Below, piece by piece: positions 26,417 through 62,025 of a stretch of 64,000 bases of DNA. The notes below the pieces were generated by a model. The model saw only the letters and a list, made by a program, of their open reading frames with translations. It had not been told where the DNA came from and made no database searches. Each line of letters starts with the position of its first letter. The stretch's first letter is position 1. The translations under genes were made by a program, and so were the position numbers. Source of the stretch: a virus; the IMG/VR virus record IMGVR_UViG_3300005747_000012, positions 62,001 through 126,000 of that record. One strand, 5' to 3'.

Positions 26417-26838
26417 TATTCCTCCGATAACTGTCCATTTGGCCCAATTTGAGGGGGTTGTGCTTTTAGCTTATCTTGACTTGGTTTGAACATAGAATAA
26501 CGCCTTACACCATTAACAAATACTTTGACTTCAATATCTACCCAAAACATTTGCCACACCCATGAAACTAAATTTCTACATCTAGCGTCAAAATTTTCGA
26601 TGACACCTTTTTTCTCATATCCTTTAGGCATCGTAACAAAAAACTCAACTAAATTTTGTTTTGTTGATTGCATTGTGGCTTTTGTTAAATCATATTTAAC
26701 CTCAACACCTTCAACATCATCAAAAACAATATACGGCCATTTTTGCAGGCTTTCCTGATGTACACTAGAGATTTCACCAGTTAGCATGGTAATTTTTCTC
26801 ATATCCTCTAGCATAGCTTTTACGGTTTCTGTTTTCAT
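26416..26838 (-). CDS. Hypothetical protein (140 aa)
   Basis: Mixed alpha/beta protein with several aromatic residues (LVSWVWQMFWVDIEVKVFVN) and a Pro/Gln-rich C-terminus. Its size and fold impression recall head-tail completion or virion proteins, but I cannot assign it. It overlaps both neighbours by 1-4 nt. Confidence 0.6.
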   Translation of the reverse strand: MKTETVKAMLEDMRKITMLTGEISSVHQESLQKWPYIVFDDVEGVEVKYDLTKATMQSTKQNLVEFFVTMPKGYEKKGVIENFDARCRNLVSWVWQMFWVDIEVKVFVNGVRRYSMFKPSQDKLKAQPPQIGPNGQLSEE

Positions 26839-28508
26839 ACTTCCCTCAAAAACTCTTTTATACTTTCTTTTTTAACACCCTCAATTGGCTGGAACTCTGT
26901 CTCAAGATATTTTTCAAGTGTTATAGAAGTATCTTTAATATCTTTGGCAACTTTAACATCAGTTGGCTTTACCTTAATACTAGCTTTATCTTTTAATTCT
27001 TTTTTAACTTTATTAATCCAAGCGGTTTTACCCTCAAGCACCACATAGTTTCTAGCATCTGGGTTAAGTATTGGCAATTCTTCACCTTCTTTAACTTCAT
27101 ATGAAGTAATTGGTGTAACTACATTTTCAGTTGAAAAAAATTTTTTTGATTTAACAGCACCAGTGTCTTCATGTTCAAATATCCAAATTCCTTTGGGTTG
27201 ATTAGCGTCTGCCATTGTATCCCATTTAGGAGTACCCGGATAAAAGCATTTTCCTACTTGCTGGCTTTTGTGAATGTGACCTGATATAATTTCTTGTTGC
27301 GGAACTAACGCAGGGTCAATTCCTTCCTCACTAAAAAACCCATTCTCATATTGAGCACCAGTAAACGTCTGGTGAGCAATAAGGCAACCTGTAACACCTT
27401 GTTCGTAAAGATATTTACAATCCTCTAAAAAACTTTTGTAATCTTCATAGTATGGCATATAGCCTATATTATCTATTTCTGTAGGTACGTCAATAATGTT
27501 TATGTTATATTTGTATTGCTCATCTAAAAGAGATACAGAATTTAAACCAGCATTTTTTGATTGCCCTAAAATCATGTCGTGATTTCCTACTAAGGCTATT
27601 ATGTCATATTGTTTTTGTATTCTTTTAAAAGTTTTTTTCCAAAAATCAAATACTTCTATTCTAATTACGCCGTGGGTATGGAACAAATCTCCTAAAAAAA
27701 CTATTGTAGATACGTTATTTTCTTTTGCTATTTTTACTATAAAATCTATTAATTTTTCACAATCTTTTAAATTATTTATTTGTAAATGTGGATCACCTAC
27801 ATATAAATATTTATTAAATTTTATTTTGTTTTCTATATAACTTTTTTTGTCTTTTATATAAAATGGTATCCTAATTAATTTTATGCCATTCTTTTTACAA
27901 ATGTCGTTTTTTATTTCATCTCTATTGTTTATTGTAAAAAAATCTTCTTTAAAAAAATCAGTATTTTGAAAATGTTGTTTTCCATCGTATTCAAAAGCTA
28001 ACTTTAATTCTTTACAATAGCCATCCAATTCTAATTTTTTTCCTGTCTTATCATTTACAAGCCAATCAGGTCTTTCTTTTGGAAATTTTTTACCAGTGAT
28101 ATCCTCAAATATTTCTCTACAATATTCTTCGTTTTTGTATATTTTATTTTTTAAATGAGGTATTATCCCATTTACTTTAAAAGAAAACAGTGTAGTTTCA
28201 TATTCTTTGTTGTTTGGGCCTAAAACTTTTAATTTTTCTTTATTGCCATTGTATTTTGTAGATAGTAGTTTGTAACCTTTTTCTTCAAAAAAACCCCTGA
28301 CTTCTTCTATGTTATATTGTCTTTTTCCTGCACAATAAGAACACCTGTGACCTTCTTTAAAAACCTTAAAAGACATCGGAAAAACATGTCCCTTATTACA
28401 TTCTATATCTAATTTTTGTAGTTGACCTTCGTATTCATTGGAAAGTAATTTATACCCTTCTTTTTCTATAGTATTTTTGACATACTTTAAAGTGTGTTTA
28501 TTTGGCAT
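26835..28508 (-). CDS. SbcD/gp47-like nuclease fused to homing-endonuclease module
   Basis: A 557-aa two-part protein. Residues 1-228 look like a Vsr/EDxHD-type homing endonuclease: two zinc-ribbon-like repeats (GYKLLSNEYEGQLQKLDIEC with GHRCSYCAG), then ELDGYCKELKLAFEYDGKQH (nuclease core) and GIKLIRIPFY. From about 231 it is a Mre11/SbcD metallophosphoesterase: YVGDPHL, FLGDLFH, LVGNHDM, GHIHKS. No in-frame ATG, GTG or TTG precedes the phosphoesterase start, so the fusion seems to be translated as one chain. The SbcD part should partner the SbcC-like ATPase. Related endonuclease modules interrupt the terminase. Confidence 0.82.
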   Translation of the reverse strand: MPNKHTLKYVKNTIEKEGYKLLSNEYEGQLQKLDIECNKGHVFPMSFKVFKEGHRCSYCAGKRQYNIEEVRGFFEEKGYKLLSTKYNGNKEKLKVLGPNNKEYETTLFSFKVNGIIPHLKNKIYKNEEYCREIFEDITGKKFPKERPDWLVNDKTGKKLELDGYCKELKLAFEYDGKQHFQNTDFFKEDFFTINNRDEIKNDICKKNGIKLIRIPFYIKDKKSYIENKIKFNKYLYVGDPHLQINNLKDCEKLIDFIVKIAKENNVSTIVFLGDLFHTHGVIRIEVFDFWKKTFKRIQKQYDIIALVGNHDMILGQSKNAGLNSVSLLDEQYKYNINIIDVPTEIDNIGYMPYYEDYKSFLEDCKYLYEQGVTGCLIAHQTFTGAQYENGFFSEEGIDPALVPQQEIISGHIHKSQQVGKCFYPGTPKWDTMADANQPKGIWIFEHEDTGAVKSKKFFSTENVVTPITSYEVKEGEELPILNPDARNYVVLEGKTAWINKVKKELKDKASIKVKPTDVKVAKDIKDTSITLEKYLETEFQPIEGVKKESIKEFLREV

Positions 28509-29887: not shown

Positions 29888-32440
29888 TTACACCTTTATA
29901 AATTTTATTTCATTTGTTGTTTCTTTATACATAGAAAGTCTTTTTTGCAAATGATTTTCTAAAAGACTTATGTTGCTTACTCTAAAATCATAAATTTTTG
30001 AATAAGGCTTGGGCCTGTGATAGCCCTTGTATTTACTGTTTTCAAGAATACGGACACTTCTACCAACAGCCCCCTGCTTAGTTCTGGTTTCAGAGCCACC
30101 GCCTACCCAATTTATAGTATTGTGTGTGCAGTACATGTTGGTTCCTGTTGCAATGCAAGAAGTTCCAATAAGAACTTTCACTTGTCCAAGATTAAAAGTT
30201 TCAACTGCCTCATCGACTTTCCGAGTTTCCAGACCAAATCTAGCAGCATCAGCTTTTGATGCAGAATGTACATATTCAAACGGAACATTTAGTCTGTCTA
30301 CTAACATTCTAATTTGCTCCAATTCCTCCACCAAAATTAAAGTGCTTTCTTGAGCTTGATTCCAAGCTGAATTTGCAATCTTGGCCGCTATATCGGCGAT
30401 GTTTGAATTGTATAAAAATTGTTTTCTTTTAGCTTTTAGTGGGTCTCTGTAATTTTTAACATCTTTACTTGTAGTTTCAAAAACAAAAAATTTTACAGGA
30501 CAAATATAACCACCGTCTACGGCTTCCTTTGTTGGTAGTTCATATACTTTTTTTCCAATAATTGATTCTAGCAACTTGTCTTTTCCGTCACCCCTAACCT
30601 GAGTACCTGATAAAAAAAATCGGTATGGAACACTGTTTAGCACACCATGAAATACTGTTTCAAGAGTTTCAGCCGCCAGTGTGTGGGATTCATCGCCAAT
30701 TACTACATCAGCATTAGCAAAGAAATCATAGGCTTCAGTACCCGGTTTAAGCATTGTTAGTGACTTTGACACGCACACTGTAAACAATTTACCTAATCTT
30801 TTTTTACCGCCACCATAAGCTCCGACATTAGATTTGCCAAAATGGTGCTCAAATTTCTCCAAAATTTCTAGAAATATAGACTTACTAGGTGTAACTATTA
30901 CGGTCTTAAGACCTAGCTCACGGGCTAGTGTCAAAATAATAGCTGTCTTACCTGAGTTATGGGTAACGGTAAAATCATCCATAACATATAAATTATCGTT
31001 GTCAACTTCAAAGCCAAAATATTCATTTTCTGGCAATTGCTTTACTTTAAAACCTGTTCTTAATACATTTTTTACTTGCTTTCTGGGTTTTGCTTTTTTT
31101 CTTTCTAATATAACTGGTATTCTATTAATATCACCAGAAATTGTAATTCTATAATATGTTCCTTCGATTCCATTTTGACTTTTCTTTTTTTCTTTTTTTT
31201 GGTAAGCTGCAAAACCAAGTGATCTTGCTATAAAAAGTATATCATCGGATAATTCTTTGTTTTTCTGAGAAATTTCATAATAATTATTTCCTAAGTATCC
31301 ATCGGAATCTATTACACCAGCCAATAATTTAAGTCTTGTTTCTTCTGAATTTATTTTAAAATCTTTTGGAATATGTTTGTTTTTTATTAAGTCGTAATGT
31401 TTTAGATTGTTTCTTAGTGCATTTAACCCTTTTCCTCTAAGTGGATTATACATGCAATAAGTTTTAGACAAATTGTTTTCTGATATAACTTCTTCTCTTA
31501 TCATTAAACCAAGTTGCCTTGCGTATTCCATCCATTTTTCTTTAATTTCGCAATCCATTGTAGTTAAAGCTGGACCATCTGAATTCCCATCGCCAAGCCA
31601 AATACCTAATATATAGGGGTCGATAGCGGTTAATTTGCTTTTAAAATCAATACCTGTTCTATATAGTTTATATCTATGTTTAAATGATTTTGTTTGTTTT
31701 AAATAATCTTTTACTGATATATTTACAATTGGATTTGTACCTTTAAAATCACTTCTTCTTTTTTTGTTTTTTATACGATATTGAGATTGATTATTAGTTC
31801 TTTGCAAGGATAATATATGCCCCATATTAACTATAAAAGACTCCCCTTTAACTGGAATAATTTTTGCCATTTTTTCTTTGCCTCTATGTAGTTTTAATAC
31901 TTTACGAGGTTTAGAATCTGGCCCCATTAACAAATCACCAACAACAATATCTTCCACTTTTTTTAAAGAACCATCATACATTAATATTTCTTGTCCCTTA
32001 ACGTGACATCCCGTGCAAAGCTCTACACAGCCATGTTTTGCCTGAATAAGACGTTCTACAGATTTTTTCTGGTATGGATATAGCTCAAATGGCAAAGTCT
32101 TTCTCCACGGCATTTTGCGTGGCTCTGGGTAGCTAATACGGTTGTGTATATCAAAACTATACCCAGACAAATATGGTAAAGAACCCGGATGAAAAGCCAA
32201 TTTTTGGTTAGAATCTAGTGTTAGCATACAAGTTTTTAATTTAGATTCTAGTTCTTTCTTTCTCAAATCATAAGTATGAGGCTTGTTTTGCTGTAACCAT
32301 CTGTTTTTTTTAAGTTTTTGCAAAGCAAATTGGGCTGACGTATCACTATAAGTCAGGCTTTTTTTCAAATCATCGACAACTTCCCTATTGGGAGTTTCGA
32401 GGTAACATTTGGTTGGATTTTCTATTGTAATCTTTATCAT
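29888..32440 (-). CDS. uvsW: UvsW-like SF2 helicase interrupted by an intein
   Basis: An 850-aa precursor. The host protein is an SF2 DNA helicase: an N-terminal UvsW-type region, ELYPYQKKSVERLI before motif I, Walker A split as CTG / SGKTAIILTLARE, DESH box in VVIGDESHTLA, FFLSGT (motif III), and GTSCIATGTN plus RTKQGAVGRSVR (motifs V and VI). Residues 145-495 are an intein in the P-loop. The start ATG is at 32438-32440, only 7 nt from a promoter motif with no ribosome binding site, so the message is probably leaderless. UvsW-type helicases unwind R-loops and drive branch migration late in infection. Confidence 0.9.
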   Translation of the reverse strand: MIKITIENPTKCYLETPNREVVDDLKKSLTYSDTSAQFALQKLKKNRWLQQNKPHTYDLRKKELESKLKTCMLTLDSNQKLAFHPGSLPYLSGYSFDIHNRISYPEPRKMPWRKTLPFELYPYQKKSVERLIQAKHGCVELCTGCHVKGQEILMYDGSLKKVEDIVVGDLLMGPDSKPRKVLKLHRGKEKMAKIIPVKGESFIVNMGHILSLQRTNNQSQYRIKNKKRRSDFKGTNPIVNISVKDYLKQTKSFKHRYKLYRTGIDFKSKLTAIDPYILGIWLGDGNSDGPALTTMDCEIKEKWMEYARQLGLMIREEVISENNLSKTYCMYNPLRGKGLNALRNNLKHYDLIKNKHIPKDFKINSEETRLKLLAGVIDSDGYLGNNYYEISQKNKELSDDILFIARSLGFAAYQKKEKKKSQNGIEGTYYRITISGDINRIPVILERKKAKPRKQVKNVLRTGFKVKQLPENEYFGFEVDNDNLYVMDDFTVTHNSGKTAIILTLARELGLKTVIVTPSKSIFLEILEKFEHHFGKSNVGAYGGGKKRLGKLFTVCVSKSLTMLKPGTEAYDFFANADVVIGDESHTLAAETLETVFHGVLNSVPYRFFLSGTQVRGDGKDKLLESIIGKKVYELPTKEAVDGGYICPVKFFVFETTSKDVKNYRDPLKAKRKQFLYNSNIADIAAKIANSAWNQAQESTLILVEELEQIRMLVDRLNVPFEYVHSASKADAARFGLETRKVDEAVETFNLGQVKVLIGTSCIATGTNMYCTHNTINWVGGGSETRTKQGAVGRSVRILENSKYKGYHRPKPYSKIYDFRVSNISLLENHLQKRLSMYKETTNEIKFIKV
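30956..32008 (-). mobile_element. LAGLIDADG intein in the helicase P-loop
   Basis: 351-aa protein-splicing element. It begins at Cys (CHVKGQEILMYDGSLKK) and ends with the penultimate His-Asn (DDFTVTHN), with Ser as the first C-extein residue, so all three splicing residues are intact. It contains two LAGLIDADG helices, LGIWLGDGNSD and LAGVIDSDGYL, so the homing nuclease looks complete. It inserts between Gly and Ser of the Walker A motif. It is homologous to the intein at 46302-47297 (shared YDGS-KK, VGDLLMGPDSKPRKVL). Confidence 0.95.
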
Positions 32441-32453
32441 ATAACTATATAAT
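32425..32453 (+). promoter_or_regulatory. Sigma-70-type promoter for the endolysin
   Basis: Plus-strand TTGTAA, a 17-bp spacer and TATAAT (32448-32453) 22 nt upstream of the endolysin start. The -10 box is the complement of the minus-strand phage motif, so one sequence serves both directions. Confidence 0.55.
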
Positions 32454-32458
32454 ATCAC
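32448..32458 (-). promoter_or_regulatory. Phage promoter motif GTGATATTATA (helicase)
   Basis: Copy of the recurrent element ending 7 nt before the helicase ATG. It overlaps a plus-strand TATAAT for the divergent endolysin gene. Confidence 0.6.
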
Positions 32459-32474
32459 AAAAAAAGGAGAGATT

Positions 32475-32894
32475 ATGTCTTTTAAATATAGCGCCAAATC
32501 TCTAGCAAAATTAAATACTTGCCACCCAGATTTGCAAAAAATACTTAAAAAAGCAATAAAACACTATGATATCACTATCTTAGAAGGTATTCGTACCAAA
32601 GAATGCCAAGAAGAGCTAGTTCGTACCGGTATGTCAAAAACTATGGACTCTAAACATTTAAAACAAGCTGATGGCTATTCTCATGCCGTTGACTGTGCTC
32701 TTTGGCCGGTTGATTGGAATGACCGTGAGAGATTTGTATTTCTACAAGGTTATCTCAAGGGTTTAGCTGACCAAATGAAAGAAGCTGGTGAAATTAGCCA
32801 CTCTCTTCGCCTTGGTGTAGATTGGGACGGTGATGGTAATATCAAGGAACATTCTTTCTTTGATGGGCCTCACATTGAACTTTCCCTAAAGTAA
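32475..32894 (+). CDS. M15 (VanY/T5-type) endolysin peptidase
   Basis: The only plus-strand gene supported here. A 139-aa peptidoglycan L,D- or D,D-endopeptidase of family M15. KTMDSKHLKQADGYSHAVD has the S-x-H...A-x-D zinc motif, and FFDGPHIELS the closing H with the general-base Asp/Glu nearby (GVDWDGDG). AAAAAAGGAGAGATT is a strong ribosome binding site. No signal peptide or wall-binding domain, so release probably depends on a holin. The 3' end overlaps the convergent COQ7-like gene by 53 nt, so lysis expression may be restrained by antisense transcription. Confidence 0.88.
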   Translation: MSFKYSAKSLAKLNTCHPDLQKILKKAIKHYDITILEGIRTKECQEELVRTGMSKTMDSKHLKQADGYSHAVDCALWPVDWNDRERFVFLQGYLKGLADQMKEAGEISHSLRLGVDWDGDGNIKEHSFFDGPHIELSLK

Positions 32895-38465: not shown

Positions 38466-39929
38466 TTATACATCAAAAAAAATACTCTTTTTTTCCTGTG
38501 ATTTCCTTGACTTATGTTTTTGACCGCCTGTTAAGTCATTGATTTTGTTTTGCAAATCTCTAGGTCTTCCTTTAATATTTTCAAGATCATAGCTGAACAA
38601 AACTTTAGAGCCTTTACCAAACATACTATAAAAAAAGTATCTAATCATATCCATAATATCAGCAGTTCCATCTTTACCATGCTCTGGCTTACCATCAATA
38701 GGATTTCCCTTACCATCAAGTTTCCATTTATAAGTCTCAAAAGCATCAAAAACACGTTCATTATTACGTGTTTTTAGTACCTTAAAATGTCTATTATTGT
38801 TTGCATCTACAATTTTAGATTGAACAGCAGTAATACCATCCACAACAGATTCCACACCTTTTTTAACACCTATAGCTGGAATACGACCTACCGAAGTGTT
38901 TGTTTTCCTTAACATCTTAATATAAGCTGGATAGTTCGAGTCACAAAACCATTTGTTAACCCTATATATTTCCGTAAGCTCTTTTACTTTTTGAACAATT
39001 TCAGGTATTTCCATGTCTGGAGCTGAAGTAATATCAACAAGCCATGATTTTCCACCAGCTATTTTGGCAAATACACCCAAAGCAGTTTCGTCAGTATTTC
39101 CCCAATCGGCAGCACCATAAAATTCAATTCCAAGATTGTGCATAAATTGAACTAATTCATCTAGGGTCTTGCCCTCAACTTCTTCACCTGACAAATACTC
39201 CCAAGATTCATCAATACTGATAGCATTATCAACAATATCAAATCTAGGGTAAACAAGACCGCTAGAGCTTGGCTTGTTACACAATAGCTGTGCCTCACCC
39301 ATTTCAGGCGAGGTTTGTTTAAAGTTATTGTGAACCGCATAGATAGGTTTATAAAGATCACCTACATCATTTTGCGGTCGGTCTACAAGAGAGTTTTTCA
39401 TAACCGATAACATCGGATGGTCAGCAATCCCTGAATAAACTTTTACCGCTTCATATTTATGTCTTGATTCTTCATTAAGTTCTTCAAACTCTTCAGGAGA
39501 TAAATTTCTTAATGGAAGCTCCCTACCAACATATCTTGTTACTTTTTCTTCATTTTTTTTGGCCTCTGATTCTGGAATACGTTCAGTCACATCAATAATG
39601 TTCCAACGTAAAATTTCTCCACCAGATCGCTCTGTATCTTTAAGTGTTTTCTCCATTAATCCACCGGCATACTTACGAGTGGAAAGATAGACGGTTAGCG
39701 GAAAATACCCTTTATAAACACACGGAATCATTTTTGCTTCTTCCAATGCTCTTGGGTCTTGAACAACATCTATCTCATCCATAAACAGCATTGGAACATG
39801 TTCCGAATTGTGGGTTAATATACCATTAGCAAAATAATTGTGATTTCCTTCAACTTCAAAGTCATAAGTAGTAAAAGACTGAGAAGTTTCTATTTCTTCT
39901 ATTTTTAAAATCTCTATTTCTTCTAACAT
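38466..39929 (-). CDS. Large terminase C-terminal half with C-intein
   Basis: A 487-aa protein. The first 41 residues are the C-terminal part of an intein: YDFEVEGNHNYFANGILTHN, with the His-Asn pair intact and Ser following. The remainder is the C-extein of the large terminase. Walker B is VPMLFMDEID, the coupling region is VYLSTRKYAG, and an RNase H-like nuclease carries GIEFYGAADWGNTDE, WFCDSNYPAYI and a late D-x-x-D (GTADIMDMIR). ATG at 39927-39929 overlaps the stop of the upstream gene (ATGTTAG) with GGAG 7 nt before. Trans-splicing with 39923-42172 would restore the packaging motor. Confidence 0.9.
   Translation of the reverse strand: MLEEIEILKIEEIETSQSFTTYDFEVEGNHNYFANGILTHNSEHVPMLFMDEIDVVQDPRALEEAKMIPCVYKGYFPLTVYLSTRKYAGGLMEKTLKDTERSGGEILRWNIIDVTERIPESEAKKNEEKVTRYVGRELPLRNLSPEEFEELNEESRHKYEAVKVYSGIADHPMLSVMKNSLVDRPQNDVGDLYKPIYAVHNNFKQTSPEMGEAQLLCNKPSSSGLVYPRFDIVDNAISIDESWEYLSGEEVEGKTLDELVQFMHNLGIEFYGAADWGNTDETALGVFAKIAGGKSWLVDITSAPDMEIPEIVQKVKELTEIYRVNKWFCDSNYPAYIKMLRKTNTSVGRIPAIGVKKGVESVVDGITAVQSKIVDANNNRHFKVLKTRNNERVFDAFETYKWKLDGKGNPIDGKPEHGKDGTADIMDMIRYFFYSMFGKGSKVLFSYDLENIKGRPRDLQNKINDLTGGQKHKSRKSQEKKSIFFDV
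39807..39929 (-). other. C-terminal intein segment (41 aa)
   Basis: Contains splicing blocks F and G (YDFEVEGNHNYFANG, ILTHN) and starts its own open reading frame. First extein residue is Ser. Partner block A/B segment begins at 41677. Confidence 0.88.
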
Positions 39930-41677
39930 TCCAAACTCCACTTCCGGTGTCCGTAATCATATATTTTATACAAAGCTCTTGAATGCCCCAGAAACTTTCT
40001 ACTAAACACGCCTCCTTCTGCTTGTGCTTTTTCTGTAGGATATTTGTTTAGTATATCCGGGTCATTTATTTTTCTACACTTAAATCGCCACAATCTTTTT
40101 TGGAAATCGGTATAATAATAGCTAGGCTCTGTTGTTTGAGTAATTTCTTTAAACCCTAATTTTTGATAAGTATTTCCAAGGCTCAATCTGTTATTGCTGT
40201 ATGTGATCAATTTTTTATTATATTCTTTTATAAAACACTTGATTATTTTACTAGCATTTCCATATATTTTAAGGCCTGATTTAGTCGCAAACCGGGCTAT
40301 TTCCCAGTAGTTTTTGTTATTGAAGGGAACCCTAAAAGACATACATGAAACAAGTTCATCCCCATCAAATAGGCCATATGCGAAACTTGCTTGTACATGG
40401 CCGTCTAGATGGTATTTATCAAAAAAAGATTTAAACCCTATATTCTTGTTAATTTTTTTTATTTCTAACTTTGATGCCCTCATTTTTTTATCATAAATAC
40501 CCAGTCTACTTTTGATCATAGATTTGACCAGTTCTTGTTTTAAAGGATCACTCCACTCATCTTCAAATATAGCTAGTATATTTATGTTTTTTTGATTTAT
40601 TTTACAAGCCTTTTCTATATTTATTTTTTTAGCATTTTTCTTTACTTTTTCACTGTGCCAATAAAGACCGTCGAATTCTACTCCAAATTTAAACTCTGGA
40701 ATATAAATATCAATCTCTAATGGATGAATAATATCTCTATTGTTAATTTCTATTTTTCCCTTATAAATAGTTTTTATATACCCAACAATTTCTTGGTGTG
40801 CTTTTGAATAAGGTCTATAACAATGTTTGCATCTTTTTCCATGGTTGTAAAAATTACTAAACATAATCATTGTTTTGTGGTCATTTGGACATATTACGCT
40901 TATTGGCTCATATTGGTTTTTGTATTGTTTTAAATCTGTTTTATAACCTTGTTCTTGAATATATTTTACAACAAAATTTGTATCATGTCTTTTTTTGTGG
41001 CAATCACCTTGGCTACACCTAGCATTTTTATGTTTAAAATCATGATAGCTAACACTATACTCATGACCGTTATCGCATATTGTTTGTATTTTTTGCTTGG
41101 TATTTTTATAGCTCTCTTTTTCGATATTAACCCTATATTTCTTAGACTCAAAAAAAGCCTTGATTTTTTCAAAAGAGATAGACTTACAGGCTAAACACCC
41201 TCTTCTTTTTTTGTTTTTAAACTCGTTAAACGAACACTTTTTTAAATGACCATCCTTGCAGGTCATCTCTAGTATAGTATTAGTGTTTTTATACTTGTCT
41301 TTTGTTGTTTTTAGTTTATACCCTTTTTTTTCTATAAACTCTTTGGCTTTTTCAAAACCAAGCGCACTACTAGCATCTCTATTTTTACGAAAAGCTTTTT
41401 CTCCAACTTTTATGTCTTTAGCTTTTACATATCCCCTGCCTTTAATATATATTTTGTGATCAAGAGAACACTCCAATATACCGTTAGATGTAGTAATTTT
41501 TATAATTTTTTTATGTTTATTTTTTTGCGTACAGATAACAGGTTTATATTCTTCATATTTTTTATTGTGATTATGGGACCAGAACAGAAAATCTTCACCA
41601 TTTTTTAGTCTTTTATATATTGTACTAGCAGATAAATTACCTTTGTTAGTTTTTATACTTGTATTGCCTTTTACACA
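39923..41677 (-). mobile_element. Intein with EDxHD/Vsr-like homing endonuclease (N part)
   Basis: From the first intein Cys (TGT at 41675-41677) to the stop that breaks the chain. The endonuclease occupies the place where cis-inteins usually carry LAGLIDADG. The related fragment at 48564-48719 and the module in 26835-28508 belong to the same family. Confidence 0.85.
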
Positions 41678-42172
41678 GTTCATCCCGGCTACCGTAGCAA
41701 CAACAATTCTTAAATAAATAGCATCACCTTTACTAGTGAGCCATTCAATTTTGGCTTTGCTATCAGACAGCTTTCGCCAACCATTTGCTTCAAGATATGG
41801 CGATAGTTTTCTAAAAAACGAGTTAACGTATTGGATTGCTTTTTCTGATTGTGATTTAATCGCTGCACCGTGAGCAACGGATATTTCAAAATGAAGCATA
41901 CATAATACTTCAATAGCCGCAGCAGACAGAGTTTTATAGGAGTCACGGGAAGCAAGCATACAAACTTGTGGAACATCCCGACTATTACCCGTTTTCATCA
42001 ACTCATAGATACGCCACATGGCATCAACCGGGCCATGTGTAGAACCGGGATATACGACACCCATTGGAAACTTAATATCTAAAAAGATATGCATCCAATT
42101 TCTAAGTTCCTCTGGCCCATTCAAAGGCTTTAAAACTAGTTCGTTTTTTAGCTTTTCTATTTCTTCTGACAT
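39923..42172 (-). CDS. Large terminase N-terminal half + N-intein + Vsr-like homing endonuclease
   Basis: A 749-aa chain. Residues 1-165 are terminase N-extein, with CMLASRDSYKTLSAAAIEVL as the P-loop-like ATPase motif, ending VVATVAGMN. Residues 166 to about 265 are intein blocks A and B (CVKGNTSIKT; GILECSLDHKIYI). About 272-455 are three zinc-ribbon-like repeats (GYKLKTTKDKYKN, CKDGH, CLACKS). HPLEIDIYIPEFKFGVEFDG (around 483-502) is the Vsr/EDxHD nuclease core. A GNAT-like C-terminal region follows. The terminase reading frame is not resumed. The C-half is a separate overlapping gene. Confidence 0.88.
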   Translation of the reverse strand: MSEEIEKLKNELVLKPLNGPEELRNWMHIFLDIKFPMGVVYPGSTHGPVDAMWRIYELMKTGNSRDVPQVCMLASRDSYKTLSAAAIEVLCMLHFEISVAHGAAIKSQSEKAIQYVNSFFRKLSPYLEANGWRKLSDSKAKIEWLTSKGDAIYLRIVVATVAGMNCVKGNTSIKTNKGNLSASTIYKRLKNGEDFLFWSHNHNKKYEEYKPVICTQKNKHKKIIKITTSNGILECSLDHKIYIKGRGYVKAKDIKVGEKAFRKNRDASSALGFEKAKEFIEKKGYKLKTTKDKYKNTNTILEMTCKDGHLKKCSFNEFKNKKRRGCLACKSISFEKIKAFFESKKYRVNIEKESYKNTKQKIQTICDNGHEYSVSYHDFKHKNARCSQGDCHKKRHDTNFVVKYIQEQGYKTDLKQYKNQYEPISVICPNDHKTMIMFSNFYNHGKRCKHCYRPYSKAHQEIVGYIKTIYKGKIEINNRDIIHPLEIDIYIPEFKFGVEFDGLYWHSEKVKKNAKKINIEKACKINQKNINILAIFEDEWSDPLKQELVKSMIKSRLGIYDKKMRASKLEIKKINKNIGFKSFFDKYHLDGHVQASFAYGLFDGDELVSCMSFRVPFNNKNYWEIARFATKSGLKIYGNASKIIKCFIKEYNKKLITYSNNRLSLGNTYQKLGFKEITQTTEPSYYYTDFQKRLWRFKCRKINDPDILNKYPTEKAQAEGGVFSRKFLGHSRALYKIYDYGHRKWSLEC

Positions 42173-43956
42173 TACGCTCTCAAATTAGCTTCATTAATAA
42201 ATTCATCAGCATGATCAGTTGCCCTTCTAAAATCTTGTTCCTCTTTCCATGCCTGAAGTTCAAGCTGACTATCTCTTGGGCTGGCAACAATACCACCAAG
42301 ATTACCCATAACACTAGCAATAGATACGCTGTTTTCAAGTGCTTGCACTACTGCCATAGTAGCATCAAAAATTCCTAGTTTTTCAGGGTCGCCAAACTCC
42401 ATGTTTTCAATATCATATACATATTTTTGATTTTGAAAATAATCAATGATAGTTTTTTCAATTTCTTCATTATTGTACCCAGCATTTTCAAGAAGTTTTC
42501 TTAGTGGTTCCATAAGACTTGGAATTAAGACCTGTTGAACAAGATTGTAGTCTCTATCATCTTCAGAGTAACTAGTTTCCAAAAACAATACTAAATTTGT
42601 TAATACTCTACAACCACCCGGCAACGCACCGTGAGCAATTGCACTTCTTACCGCACACACAGCGTCTTCACATCTATCATGTCTTTCTTTAAGCTCACCG
42701 TTAGATGCACCGTATATTTTAAGTTTGGCAATACCATTAGTTAGCTTACCAAGTCTTTCTTCAAGATCAAGCTTTTCAGCAATACTTGCAGCATTTTTAA
42801 GTTGAGTTTCAAGCTCATCTGCTCTTTCTTCGATATCCAGTTCGCTTGGCTCACCAACTACAGTACTTCTAAATCTATAATACTCAAACGTATCCATTCC
42901 GTTACCAAGGTCGTCAATAGTAGCTTTAGCTACTTGATTAGTCATGTCAAATATTTTAGCTCCGGTAAAGGCAGATAGGTCGTATAAAAATTCTAATCTA
43001 GAGTTTTTAATATTAGTCATTGGCGTAGCCATTGGTACAACATTTAATGTTGTAGGATTACTAAAATTAAACGCAAGATTTGTCAAAACATTTTCTGAAA
43101 AGCCGTGTGAAACAAGAACAAGATTGCTAAACTCAGAGTTTCCTTCATTTACAAACTTATGTCCAAGTTCTTCAATAATTGGCAGGAAAGAAACAAGATC
43201 GTTTACAATACCATCAAACAAAAGAAACAACGGTCTATCTAGTTTACAGCGTTGATTGGCCTTGTCGTTAATAAATGCTGTATGAAATTTGCCAATTGAC
43301 TCTTCAAAGCCAATAGCAATTGGTAGTCCTTCAATAAGCTCTACTTCATAACCGCTTGGCCCTGAAAGTTCTTGAATAGTAACGTGAGAAGACTCTCCAA
43401 AACCTACTTTGTCAAAAGCTTCCATTACAGCGTCAGCCATTTCTTCATCACCATTAGCAGATACTTGAGCTACTTTTTTTAGCAAGCCTTGATTGTCTAT
43501 ACTAATTTCAATTGACTGATCTTTTACCTTGGGAATAAGTTGATTTTTAACAATTTTATTCATAACCCTAGTGGCACGCTGAGGTGACTCTTTGGGATTA
43601 GCCTCACAATATCTAAATAGAGACTTTACCATAGTGGCAGAGATAATTGTAGTCGCAGTTGTACCGTCACCAGCTTCGTTGGCGGTCCTTTTAGCAGCAT
43701 CTCTAGTTTGTTCAATAATCAAGTGCTTATAAGGATCAGCACTACCTAAAGAACTGAAAATAGTAACGCCATCCTTGGTATTCTTGTTTGGAATACCGGG
43801 ATATTCGCTTTCAATAAGTGTTGTTTTACCACCCGGCCCATAGCTAGACCCTACAATTTCGGCAATTTCATCCATAGTTTGAGAGGTAATTTGTTTAAGC
43901 CTATTTGGGCTTGAGCAATACATTTTAGCTGGGGTTTTTACTTTTTTAACAGTCAT
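42172..43956 (-). CDS. groEL: GroEL-like chaperonin
   Basis: A 594-aa group I chaperonin-type protein (host GroEL is about 548). Equatorial motifs are SSYGPGGKTTLI, AGDGTTATTI, and LEERLGKLTNGIAKLKIYGA followed by CAVRSAIAHGALPGG. KTPAKMYCSSPNRL replaces the usual N-terminus. The apical domain is divergent. Some jumbo phages encode such single-ring chaperonins to fold their own proteins. A GroES-like partner is not certain, though the 108-aa gene at 28532 has a faintly similar pattern. Strong AAAGGAG and a phage promoter motif precede it. The stop overlaps the terminase start by 1 nt. Confidence 0.92.
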   Translation of the reverse strand: MTVKKVKTPAKMYCSSPNRLKQITSQTMDEIAEIVGSSYGPGGKTTLIESEYPGIPNKNTKDGVTIFSSLGSADPYKHLIIEQTRDAAKRTANEAGDGTTATTIISATMVKSLFRYCEANPKESPQRATRVMNKIVKNQLIPKVKDQSIEISIDNQGLLKKVAQVSANGDEEMADAVMEAFDKVGFGESSHVTIQELSGPSGYEVELIEGLPIAIGFEESIGKFHTAFINDKANQRCKLDRPLFLLFDGIVNDLVSFLPIIEELGHKFVNEGNSEFSNLVLVSHGFSENVLTNLAFNFSNPTTLNVVPMATPMTNIKNSRLEFLYDLSAFTGAKIFDMTNQVAKATIDDLGNGMDTFEYYRFRSTVVGEPSELDIEERADELETQLKNAASIAEKLDLEERLGKLTNGIAKLKIYGASNGELKERHDRCEDAVCAVRSAIAHGALPGGCRVLTNLVLFLETSYSEDDRDYNLVQQVLIPSLMEPLRKLLENAGYNNEEIEKTIIDYFQNQKYVYDIENMEFGDPEKLGIFDATMAVVQALENSVSIASVMGNLGGIVASPRDSQLELQAWKEEQDFRRATDHADEFINEANLRA

Positions 43957-44971: not shown

Positions 44972-45687
44972 ATAATCTCCACTGGTTTGTGACTGTAAAT
45001 ATATCTATCATCTAACGATGATGCGTTTACAAACATAGTATTTTTTTTATAAGAAACCCCATATTCTTCATGAATATGTCCAAAAACGTGCATCATTGGT
45101 TTAACTCTATTTTCAATGGTATCCATCAAATGTGGACATCCAACGTGCTCAACATCACCACTAATACCATGCCAACGTGGAACTGTATCTCTAATTCCAT
45201 ATGGTGGGCCATGAGTAATTAAAATATCAGTATCATTAGGTATCATATCCCAATGTGGCTTAATTAATGGATGTTTTTTAAACCCATGATATGGGTCGCC
45301 ATTTGGTAAATGTTCAATATCTCTATTAAAAGCCCAATTACAGAAAGTTGGTTGTACTGGACTTCCCCAAATTTTAATTTCTTCTTTGGTCCACGGACAT
45401 TTAATTGTAACACCAGAATCATTAAGATAAATTACACCATATTTACGGCACATTTCTTCAAATCTTTCAGGTTCTTTTTCAAAGCCCCAATCATGATTTC
45501 CGGCAATCATGATTTTCCAATTAAAATCAAGTGAACCATACCATTTCAAAAACGGCTTAATTTCACCAGATTGACCACGGCCAGTAGCGTCACCAGCATG
45601 AAGGATAATATCACCCTTTCCACAGTCAATTTCTTTATGACGATTGTGTGTGTCTGATATGCAAACTATTTTCATTTTTTTTTCCAT
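44944..45687 (-). CDS. Metallophosphoesterase (calcineurin-like, 247 aa)
   Basis: Complete set of phosphoesterase motifs: ISDTHNRHKE (D-x-H), ILHAGDATGRG (G-D), MIAGNHDWGF (G-N-H-D), ILITHGPPYGIRD (H), VFGHIHEEYG (G-H-x-H). The spacing and the HGPPYG motif match the MPPED-type subfamily found in many phages and bacteria, of uncertain substrate. It starts at ATG 45685-45687 in a TAATG overlap with the AAA+ gene. Confidence 0.85.
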   Translation of the reverse strand: MEKKMKIVCISDTHNRHKEIDCGKGDIILHAGDATGRGQSGEIKPFLKWYGSLDFNWKIMIAGNHDWGFEKEPERFEEMCRKYGVIYLNDSGVTIKCPWTKEEIKIWGSPVQPTFCNWAFNRDIEHLPNGDPYHGFKKHPLIKPHWDMIPNDTDILITHGPPYGIRDTVPRWHGISGDVEHVGCPHLMDTIENRVKPMMHVFGHIHEEYGVSYKKNTMFVNASSLDDRYIYSHKPVEIIWEDGPKHK

Positions 45688-47678
45688 TATCCCATCAGTC
45701 CTACTTGTTTCTTTTTAGCTTTTTCAAATGCCCTTTCAATTCTTGCTTTATGCTCTTTCATTTCAGTAATAACTTCAGCAAATGTTTTATCATGCAGTTC
45801 GGCTCTAATCACAATCTCAGAAATATGAGCGATACTTAGGCCATCAGCATCTTTACTTTTAAGTGCCATTGCTTCGTCACCAGACAACTCTCTTTTAGCA
45901 ATATAAGTACCAAGCTTAAATCTTTCTTCGGCATTTGGCCCTTCAAGCTCAAACATTTGGTCAAAACGTCCGGGTCTATCAGCTAATGATTTTAATAGGT
46001 TTTCTGGTGTATTGGTTGTTGCAATAATAAAAGTTGGTAGCCTAAAACTTACCGATGCACCATCAAGAAGCTCTAACAAGCTGGCATCCGCTCCTTTTGG
46101 GCCGTGATAACCTTCGGTATTTCCACCGCCAATATCTTCCATTACAAACAACATTCTTGTGCAATCTTTTGAAAATTTTGAACCAGTTGAAAGAAACTTA
46201 GAAACTGTACTACTTCGTATATCAGATGTATCCCAAAATAGAACAACTGTTCCCTTGTCTTCTTCGGTAAATTCTTGGCTAATTTTAGCAATTGTTGAGC
46301 TGTTATGGGTTACAACAAAATTATCTAGCACAAATAAATTATCTGAATCAACTGTAAACCCATTGTAATCACCAAACCCTATTGGCTCTATTTTTATAGC
46401 GTTTACAAGAGCATCTTTTATTTGCTTCCTTGGCTCGGCTTTTTTTCTTTTCAATAAAACTGGTATTTTATCTATATCCCCAAAAATTCTTACTCTTTTA
46501 TATGTTGATTCGTCAATTTTTTTATCCGTAACTGTGCAAGCTAAACCAAGTGATCTTGCTACAAAAACAATATCATTTGCAAGCGTTTCATTTTTTTGTA
46601 CTATTTCATAAGTATTGGATGTTAAATAGCCGTCAGAATCAATTAACCCTGCCAATATTTTAAGTCTATTTTCTTGAGAAGATGTTTTATATTCTTGTGG
46701 TATTTTTTTGTTATTAATTACACCTAATTCTTGAAAAAAATTTAACAAAATATTTCTATCTTTTTTGCCGTGTTTTTTACCGCTAGACAAATTGTAAGTA
46801 GAGGCTTTGTTTAATGGTTTTGTCCATTTGTTAGTTTTTAAACCAAATTTTTCCCCATAATCAGACCATTTTTTTGCCAATTCATCATCCATGGTTGTTA
46901 AAGATATAGAGTGGGAGCTTCCATCTCCAAGCCAAAGGCCTAAAATATAAGGGTCTACAATCAGCTCTTTATGATTATGCTTAAAATCTACAGCTTTTGT
47001 TTTATATCCTTTGTTTCTTATTTTAAAACTTTCAGATTTTTTTAAGTATTCTTTTACTGAAATATTTACTATTTCTTTTGTATCTGTATTTTTTAAAGAA
47101 ATTACATGGTTACTGTTGACCGTATAGCAATCTCCTTTTGTATTAACTACTCTATACATTTCATCCTTACCAGAATGTAACATTAAAACCTTGCGAGGTT
47201 TTGAATCTGGCCCCATTAACAAATCACCAACTTTTACATTTTTAGCTTTTTTAACTGAGCCATCGTACATTAATACACCTTGATTTGGACCTAGACATTT
47301 ACCCATGCCCGGTTGTGAGTAGAGTAAAATTGACCGTTTAGGGTCTTTATTGTATTTTTTGTAAATATCTAATTTATCAAAGAAAAGTTTAGACTCTTTT
47401 TTAATAAGTTGAGTATTACTGGCCGACTCAAGAAGGTCATGGGTTTTAAGTTCAAATTTTTTAGTTCTTAAACCAACTGAAGTATTTACCAAAGTCCAAA
47501 TACCCGGTTTAATAGTAAATTTTTCTTTATCTTGCTCTTCTTCAGCATATTCAAATTGAACAATATGAGTTTCTGTTTGAATACAAAGGTCAGACTCAGG
47601 AAGTTCTTTGACAGTACCGTCATTTAGGTCTTCAAGCTTCGTTCTTTGTAATAATTTAAACTTTCCTTCTTCTGACAT
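45687..47678 (-). CDS. AAA+ ATPase interrupted by an intein
   Basis: A 663-aa precursor. Extein: N-terminal 126 residues, Walker A split as SQPGMGK / SSTIAK, Walker B LFVMEDIGGGN, sensor 1 FIIATTN, arginine finger LADRPGRFDQMFELEGP, so it is a classic AAA+ module of the FtsH/BCS1/proteasome-ATPase type. Residues 128-459 are the intein. The function of the spliced protein (about 331 aa) is unknown. Candidates are a clamp-loader-like, protein-remodelling or virion-assembly ATPase near the chaperonin. Without splicing the P-loop is destroyed, so activity depends on the intein. Confidence 0.88.
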   Translation of the reverse strand: MSEEGKFKLLQRTKLEDLNDGTVKELPESDLCIQTETHIVQFEYAEEEQDKEKFTIKPGIWTLVNTSVGLRTKKFELKTHDLLESASNTQLIKKESKLFFDKLDIYKKYNKDPKRSILLYSQPGMGKCLGPNQGVLMYDGSVKKAKNVKVGDLLMGPDSKPRKVLMLHSGKDEMYRVVNTKGDCYTVNSNHVISLKNTDTKEIVNISVKEYLKKSESFKIRNKGYKTKAVDFKHNHKELIVDPYILGLWLGDGSSHSISLTTMDDELAKKWSDYGEKFGLKTNKWTKPLNKASTYNLSSGKKHGKKDRNILLNFFQELGVINNKKIPQEYKTSSQENRLKILAGLIDSDGYLTSNTYEIVQKNETLANDIVFVARSLGLACTVTDKKIDESTYKRVRIFGDIDKIPVLLKRKKAEPRKQIKDALVNAIKIEPIGFGDYNGFTVDSDNLFVLDNFVVTHNSSTIAKISQEFTEEDKGTVVLFWDTSDIRSSTVSKFLSTGSKFSKDCTRMLFVMEDIGGGNTEGYHGPKGADASLLELLDGASVSFRLPTFIIATTNTPENLLKSLADRPGRFDQMFELEGPNAEERFKLGTYIAKRELSGDEAMALKSKDADGLSIAHISEIVIRAELHDKTFAEVITEMKEHKARIERAFEKAKKKQVGLMG
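46302..47297 (-). mobile_element. LAGLIDADG intein in the AAA+ P-loop
   Basis: 332-aa intein starting with Cys (CLGPNQGVLMYDGSVKK) and ending NFVVTHN followed by Ser. Both LAGLIDADG helices are present (LGLWLGDGSSH, LAGLIDSDGYL). It is inserted after the Lys of Walker A. It is clearly related to the helicase intein at 30956-32008, although the exact site within the P-loop is different. Confidence 0.95.
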
Positions 47679-48563: not shown

Positions 48564-48719
48564 TTAAAGTTCCCACTTTCTATGTCCATAATCATATATT
48601 TTATATAAAGGCCTAGAATGCCCCAAGAATTTTTCGCTAAATACACCGCCTTCTGCTTGCGCTTTTTCCGTTGGATATTTTACAATCACTTCCGGGCTAT
48701 TTATTCTGCGACATTTAAA
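48564..48719 (-). pseudogene. 3' fragment of a Vsr-like homing endonuclease
   Basis: 51 codons without a start, ending in TAA. They match the extreme C-terminus of the terminase homing endonuclease: KYPTEKAQAEGGVFS, KFLGHSR and LYKIYDYGHRKW are identical, about 42 of 51 residues overall. The rest of the gene is missing, cut off at a terminator hairpin. This looks like the scar of a deleted homing endonuclease or an aborted copy event. Confidence 0.85.
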
Positions 48720-48721
48720 AC

Positions 48722-48752
48722 AAAAAAAGGGAACAAAAAGTTCCCTTTTTTT
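48722..48752 (-). terminator. Bidirectional rho-independent terminator
   Basis: GGGAAC-5 nt-GTTCCC, a perfect 6-bp stem flanked by A7 on one side and T7 on the other, so it can act in both directions. It closes the tail sheath-tail tube unit. Confidence 0.85.
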
Positions 48753-61488: not shown

Positions 61489-62025
61489 CTAAAAATTTTC
61501 TTTAATTATCAAGCTATTTTCTTTGGCATATTCTTTAATTGTTTTTTCAAGACTTTTACTAATTTCTTTTTTGTTTAAGTTTTTAAGTCTAGCGGCATTT
61601 TTCTCAGTTTTTTTAAGAGTAATTTCACCACCATTTTCACTTGCTTGAATTGAAAAAATTTCAAAATTATGTTTGGTAATTTTAAACTCAATTTCTTCAT
61701 TTTTTTTAATTGCAAAAATATTAAGCCCTAGAACAACTTTGTCAGCCGAGCTTAGGTTGTGAGAGTATTCTTTAACAAAAGGAATTGGTTCACCTTCATT
61801 TTTACTCATGGTTTGCTCAAATTTGTCATTAAATTTTTTAGAAATTTGATGGGAAACTAAGGCTGGATGTGATCCGACAGCTAAAATATCTGAATTTTTG
61901 CTATTTTTAGCTTTTTTACCCAAACCAATGTGAAAACCGCCCTTTAGGGTGACAAGTTTGACCTCAGAACCATTCAAAGTACCAAGTTTTTTAACTTCTT
62001 TGATTTCGTCTTTTTTAATTTCCAC
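61489..62025 (-). CDS. Hypothetical protein (178 aa)
   Basis: Mixed alpha/beta, Lys-rich (EVKKLGTLNGSEVKLVTLKG, KNSKNSDILAVGSHPALVSH). Unknown family. The 60 nt upstream contain AAAGGAGAA and an AATAATCTTTATA motif that also occurs before other genes here, a possible second promoter class. Confidence 0.6.
   Translation of the reverse strand: MEIKKDEIKEVKKLGTLNGSEVKLVTLKGGFHIGLGKKAKNSKNSDILAVGSHPALVSHQISKKFNDKFEQTMSKNEGEPIPFVKEYSHNLSSADKVVLGLNIFAIKKNEEIEFKITKHNFEIFSIQASENGGEITLKKTEKNAARLKNLNKKEISKSLEKTIKEYAKENSLIIKENF

Follow-up and report, generated by a model that had tools for sequence, protein, structure and literature searches.

A large terminase gene fractured by a putative homing split intein with an EDxHD endonuclease fused to its N-intein

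Introduction

How does a phage obtain its packaging motor when the gene for the large terminase (TerL) is divided between two overlapping open reading frames (ORFs), each carrying one half of an intein? The question is raised by the terL locus at positions 38,466 to 42,172 of the stretch of viral DNA analysed here (64,000 nucleotides; positions 62,001 to 126,000 of IMG/VR record IMGVR_UViG_3300005747_000012), which we call the window. On the usual account of split-intein origin, an endonuclease gene breaks a continuous intein, and genes fractured by split inteins, accompanied by a free-standing endonuclease of the EDxHD/Vsr type, were reportedly described by Dassa et al. in 2009. A first-pass annotation of the window proposed that the endonuclease in terL is fused to the N-intein rather than free, and that a split intein might be in the making, with dependence on trans-splicing or frameshifting. 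From the comparisons presented below, the locus very probably harbours a mobile split intein through which TerL is restored by trans-splicing and which homes by means of the endonuclease left on its N-intein.

Results

The terL locus lies on the minus strand of the window. ORF1 (42172..39923, 749 amino acids, aa) joins the TerL N-half to an N-intein, CapR-like zinc repeats and an EDxHD (Vsr-like) homing endonuclease, and closes with a TAG stop at 39923-39925; ORF2 (ATG at 39929, running to 38466, 487 aa) joins a 41-aa C-intein to the TerL C-half. The N-extein (41678..42172) comprises ORF1 residues 1-165, ends in ...TVAGMN, contains a Walker-A-like SRDSYKT at 41950 and aligns with residues 1-165 of the intact TerL of a sister contig, L003. 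Beyond it, ORF1 has a C-terminal tail of 584 aa, which begins with the N-intein of about 107 aa (41357..41677; Cys1 at 41677 in block A, CVKGNTSI; block B, ECSLDHK, around 41473). The C-intein (39807..39929; MLEEIEILKIEEIETSQSFTTYDFEVEGNHNYFANGILTHN) contains blocks F and G with the terminal His-Asn and is followed by the C-extein (38466..39806), with Ser+1, Walker B (VPMLFMDEID, core MLFMDEID) and an RNaseH-like nuclease. The start of ORF2 and the stop of ORF1 share the seven nucleotides ATGTTAG (39923..39929), with ORF2 in the -1 frame, and a Shine-Dalgarno (SD)-like GGAG within the final ORF1 codons (39936..39939) precedes the ORF2 start by 6 nucleotides (nt). The two overlapping genes, the in-frame run from blocks A/B through the zinc ribbon to the EDxHD/Vsr-type nuclease and the stop, the intact His-Asn and Ser+1 before the Walker B half, and the overlap with its ribosome binding site all agree with the first-pass annotation.

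The NCBIfam profile intein_Cterm (TIGR01443) matches ORF2 above its cut-off (E=8.2e-9; 35.4 bits against 15.6), while intein_Nterm (TIGR01445) matches ORF1 below it (E=3e-4; 21.7 bits against 24.5). Blocks A/B and F/G are encoded on separate polypeptides with their catalytic residues intact, as in a split intein; the continuous frame through both halves that marks a cis-splicing intein is interrupted by the stop at 39923 in four contigs and by its equivalent in a diverged relative, L154. No second terL is present in the whole 129-kb record.

The boundaries of the insertion are given by L003, whose flanks are 98-99% identical to those of the window and whose terL is a single continuous gene of 611 aa that reads ...TVAGMNSEHVPM... 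across the site. The comparison with this empty allele, one of the checks that the first-pass annotation had called for, yields a seamless terL and fixes the complete inserted element, between Asn165 and Ser166, at exactly 1871 bp (41677..39807), which is no multiple of three. The site is empty in six related phages (L003, L005-L008, L010), so that the division of terL into two ORFs coincides with the intein site here and is missing from these relatives, and in L004 a different, continuous LAGLIDADG intein occupies the identical TerL position. A structure model (mean predicted local distance difference test, pLDDT, 73) places the insertion directly ahead of the Walker B strand, predicted at 171-175, with D175/E176. 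By Foldseek, the intact TerL groups with the large terminases of D6E, HK97 and T4; among cultured phages, the only relative is the TerL of Myxococcus phage Mx1, at 27%. In two other TerL relatives, L156 and L157, a continuous intein is located at Walker A (..SRDSxK^C); L156 contains a second intein close to Walker B.

Three further contigs from other metagenome datasets (L001, L002, L009) have the two-gene layout of the window, which makes four contigs in all, and it is kept in L154, with identities of 62% for the N-extein, 61% for the N-intein and 56% for the endonuclease. Nonsynonymous divergence (dN) from L154 is about 0.32-0.34 and synonymous sites are saturated, synonymous divergence (dS) being 2.2 for the extein and not computable for the intein parts. 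L154 has the intein at the same site and the same in-frame fusion of N-intein and endonuclease; its ORF1-equivalent stops at the same endonuclease C-terminus (..YRIYDYGHRKWKLKV and a stop codon), its C-intein ORF (METESLEEIEVLEIEEI..) is again in the -1 frame and starts at an ATG that gives an overlap of 19 nt, and Cys1 and the N-intein blocks are under constraint. The recurrence of this layout, and its preservation at such divergence, are far beyond chance. Since L154 retains the fused-and-split state although synonymously saturated, we take that state to be stable; the suggestion of a split intein in the making did not hold up in so far as it implied a transient.

Two patterns of variation support the view that the element has moved by homing. 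Compared with L003, all intein-plus alleles have seven common differences in the first 21 bp past the insertion, a co-conversion tract (39786..39806; P=7e-11), among them the Ser+1 codon (TCG versus AGC), and the next difference is found only at a distance of at least 177 bp. Between the window and L001, single-nucleotide polymorphisms (SNPs) number 5 in the 1871 bp of the intein and 73 in 4530 bp of flanks (P=9.5e-7), a six-fold lower divergence of the intein, and the N-intein-endonuclease protein is identical; upstream, 29 SNPs fall within the 500 bp adjoining the insertion and one in the next 1000 bp. Both patterns are what gene conversion around a cut site produces.

The endonuclease itself, located between the two terL halves, has three parts. 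Zinc-ribbon/CapR-like repeats (40817..41356), a putative DNA-binding arm, match the Pfam CapR and zinc-ribbon profiles below cut-off and recur in free Hef-like endonucleases. The nuclease core (40493..40816; E486/D488, E499, H506 and FEDEW at 536-540) was aligned with Hef-like proteins of phages and with 28 relatives from viral contigs; D488, E499 and H506 are invariant in 29 sequences, and other core residues are also kept. Because its profile matches the structure of I-Bth0305I (3r3p; E=3.9e-8 and 7.9e-7), the nuclease can be assigned to the EDxHD family, as also the conserved Vsr-like (Hef-like) motif indicates; the PHROG families that it matches are annotated as (homing) endonucleases. The AlphaFold2 model (pLDDT 93) reveals a second, C-terminal domain (39926..40492, ending ..YKIYDYGHRKW), for which Foldseek gives phage Mu Mom (8bv8; E=2.4e-5) as the best PDB match and GNAT acetyltransferases as the next, in keeping with a GNAT profile match (2.8e-4). 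Since YSNNR in the window, L154 and L031 replaces the YADR of most relatives, a modification activity, if any, may be altered. The Hef-like EDxHD homing endonucleases L031-L109 likewise have a C-terminal GNAT domain closest to Mom. Mom domains of jumbo phages fused to restriction-fold nucleases have been read as restriction-modification systems (PMC7824862); for the protein of the window, its place in a mobile intein favours a homing role.

The endonuclease is in frame with the N-intein in the window, L001, L002, L009 and L154, as had been claimed for the window, and lacks a start codon of its own. An independent internal start was rejected: the junction region offers just two candidates, a TTG (aa 233) and an ATG (aa 303), and neither has a usable SD. 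No relative of the N-intein-endonuclease was found in the prokaryote genomes searched. Outside L154, the closest free-standing relative is L031 (45-47%), encoded in a related phage immediately behind the tail-tube gene, and at the same spot the window and its sisters have a decayed tail of 54 aa (48567..48728, minus strand in the window), 76-78% identical to the C-terminus of the terL endonuclease. Both locations make it plausible that the terL endonuclease derives from a free-standing copy at the tail locus or is a sibling of it, the direction of transfer being provisional.

Three other explanations of the locus were considered. Were the halves to stay unspliced, TerL would consist of two non-covalent chains, with the intein remnants inert. 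Enzymes encoded by genes in pieces do exist, one cited example being a phage ribonucleotide reductase that a homing endonuclease has split (PMC10448857), but for terL we regard this as improbable: the window has lost none of the splicing residues, and L154 shows constraint on Cys1 and the N-intein blocks; moreover, the break parts Walker A from Walker B within a single ATPase domain and would leave the N-chain with its 584-aa tail.

The manner of ORF2 expression bears on the second explanation, in which programmed -1 ribosomal frameshifting fuses ORF1 and ORF2 into one cis-splicing precursor. The overlapping frames and the -1 position of ORF2 in both lineages are as this would require, but the overlap contains no canonical -1 slippery heptamer (X XXY YYZ) in the window or in L154, which led us to reject a programmed frameshift, and ORF2 possesses its own ATG with GGAG at a spacing of 6. 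Among all ATGs on the ORF2 strand, 7.5% have an SD-like match of at least 4 nt at a spacing of 5-8, so that the site by itself lends ORF2 weak support; of the likely genes, 31 of 41 have such a match at some spacing within 3-12. The C-terminus of ORF1 provides a further argument. The same end point is seen in the free-standing endonucleases of the family (..YRIWDCGxxxW), and the decayed sibling ends in ..YKIYDYGHRKWEL and a stop codon, with DNA similarity to ORF1 ceasing right past that Trp codon; an endonuclease gene thus ends naturally at the ORF1 stop, which is no lesion in a longer protein. Frameshifting, one of the two routes offered by the first-pass annotation, is accordingly quite improbable, and expression from two genes with trans-splicing fits better, in which case ORF2 may be translated by re-initiation or coupled initiation.

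That the evidence consists of metagenome assemblies only could suggest that an ordinary, continuous intein splicing in cis has been broken by a frameshift arising in sequencing or assembly, but this has next to no probability and was rejected, since four contigs assembled separately have the identical break and the diverged L154 has it with different bases, and since the stop falls at the natural end of the endonuclease family, where the decayed sibling copy ends too; the continuous frame across ORF1 and ORF2 that might have spoken against the first-pass annotation is absent from all of them.

Elsewhere in the window, a helicase and an AAA ATPase each contain a continuous intein (29888-32497 and 45687-47678, minus strand). 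A GroEL-like chaperonin intein is present in L009 (1002-3758) and L004 (1693-4446) and absent from the window (42172-43956) and from L001-L003. A calcineurin-like phosphoesterase (26835-28508, minus strand) has a zinc-repeat/nuclease-like (DUF2726-like) domain of ~228 aa attached directly to its N-terminus, with no intein; this fusion is found in the relatives L003, L004 and L009 and is absent in four others.

Discussion

Based on the evidence assembled here, expression of the terL locus is envisaged as follows. Translation of ORF1 would give TerL-N with the N-intein and the endonuclease, and ribosomes starting at the overlapping ATG would give the C-intein with TerL-C. The intein halves would then associate and splice in trans, with Cys1 as the nucleophile, Asn cyclisation and Ser+1, to yield an intact packaging ATPase-nuclease of 611 aa, as in the uninterrupted sister phages, and to release the N-intein with the endonuclease still attached. 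During co-infection, the endonuclease could cut an insert-less terL at or near N165/S166, and repair would copy the entire 1871-bp element together with flanking DNA. As the most likely origin of the arrangement, an EDxHD endonuclease gene, stop codon included, would have inserted itself between blocks B and F of the intein, with an in-frame fusion on the N side alone.

Several points weigh against this interpretation. The NCBIfam score of the N-intein is under the curated cut-off, and the SD-like site of ORF2 has just 4 nt and is weak in L154. Persistence of the layout is documented by a single diverged relative, L154, whose contig ends inside the C-intein with the C-extein unseen (a search for its continuation by its last bases matched only L154 itself), and the near-identical contigs may represent one phage species sampled repeatedly. 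A recombination hotspot in terL could alone yield part of the conversion pattern. Splicing, expression and cleavage are predicted from sequence, and the halves might associate more slowly because of the long nuclease tail that the N-intein carries; PfuRIR1-1, an intein split artificially with its endonuclease domain retained, is active in trans (PMC7090010).

Comparison with known systems serves to define what is distinct about the locus. With the fractured genes of the Dassa type it shares a conserved phage gene broken by a split intein and an endonuclease of the same family at the break; in those genes the endonuclease is reportedly encoded separately, between the halves, whereas in the window it forms one chain with the N-intein and the split affects the C side alone. 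Our survey of related endonucleases covered the best 80 viral-contig loci and identified intein blocks by a small home-made profile, by which divergent fused cases may be missed; it returned no endonuclease fused to an N-intein outside the window lineage. Four of these loci are fractured genes in which a related EDxHD endonuclease accompanies a phage split intein, as in the window, in TerL (L053, L073), a DnaB-type helicase (L069) and RecA (L083); their endonucleases differ in being free-standing ORFs, and their inteins in being split early, like AceL-TerL. L053 has two endonuclease-like ORFs. In Campylobacter phage F379 (L019) and Klebsiella phage KP13-7 (L021), split inteins have likewise broken nrdA and free ORFs separate its halves, and the annotation has only separate nrdA pieces or hypothetical proteins.

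AceL-TerL, GOS-TerL and Cat-TerL are natural split inteins of the same host protein with an atypical early split (N-intein 25-37 aa, C-intein 104-115 aa; PMC11766414), in contrast to the canonical position in the window (about 107 + 41 aa) with the nuclease on the N-half. Full-length inteins, such as the LAGLIDADG intein of L004, likewise have an endonuclease between the splicing blocks, and in that instance the same TerL insertion point, but form a continuous single ORF with an endonuclease of an unrelated family. Lastly, the Hef-like/EDxHD endonucleases (I-Bth0305I, 3r3p; those of Bacillus phage AR9, Campylobacter phage NCTC12673 and others) have the nuclease core, zinc repeats and C-terminal end in common with ORF1, but are free-standing or located in group I introns, with no intein fusion.

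A review distinguishes three natural intein configurations (full-length, mini and split), and the arrangement in the window combines the split with the endonuclease-bearing one. With about even confidence, we propose a fourth natural configuration, namely a homing split intein with the endonuclease covalently on the N-intein and the C-intein in a separate overlapping gene, which would represent a stable half-step of the endonuclease invasion that makes split inteins and in which, given the Mom-like fold, one protein may both cut and mark DNA. In its layout, the terL locus matches the intermediate expected when an endonuclease gene breaks a continuous intein, fused on one side and broken on the other. 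The origin of split inteins becomes testable at this site because the intermediate occurs alongside an empty allele, a competing intein allele in the identical position, a likely sibling endonuclease elsewhere in the genome and a diverged relative in which it has persisted. In addition, the locus offers a new split intein of 107+41 aa with a Ser+1 junction, and it speaks for homing as the role of a nuclease/Mom-domain architecture read elsewhere as restriction-modification (PMC7824862). For the phage, an essential packaging motor would be placed under apparently obligatory trans-splicing.

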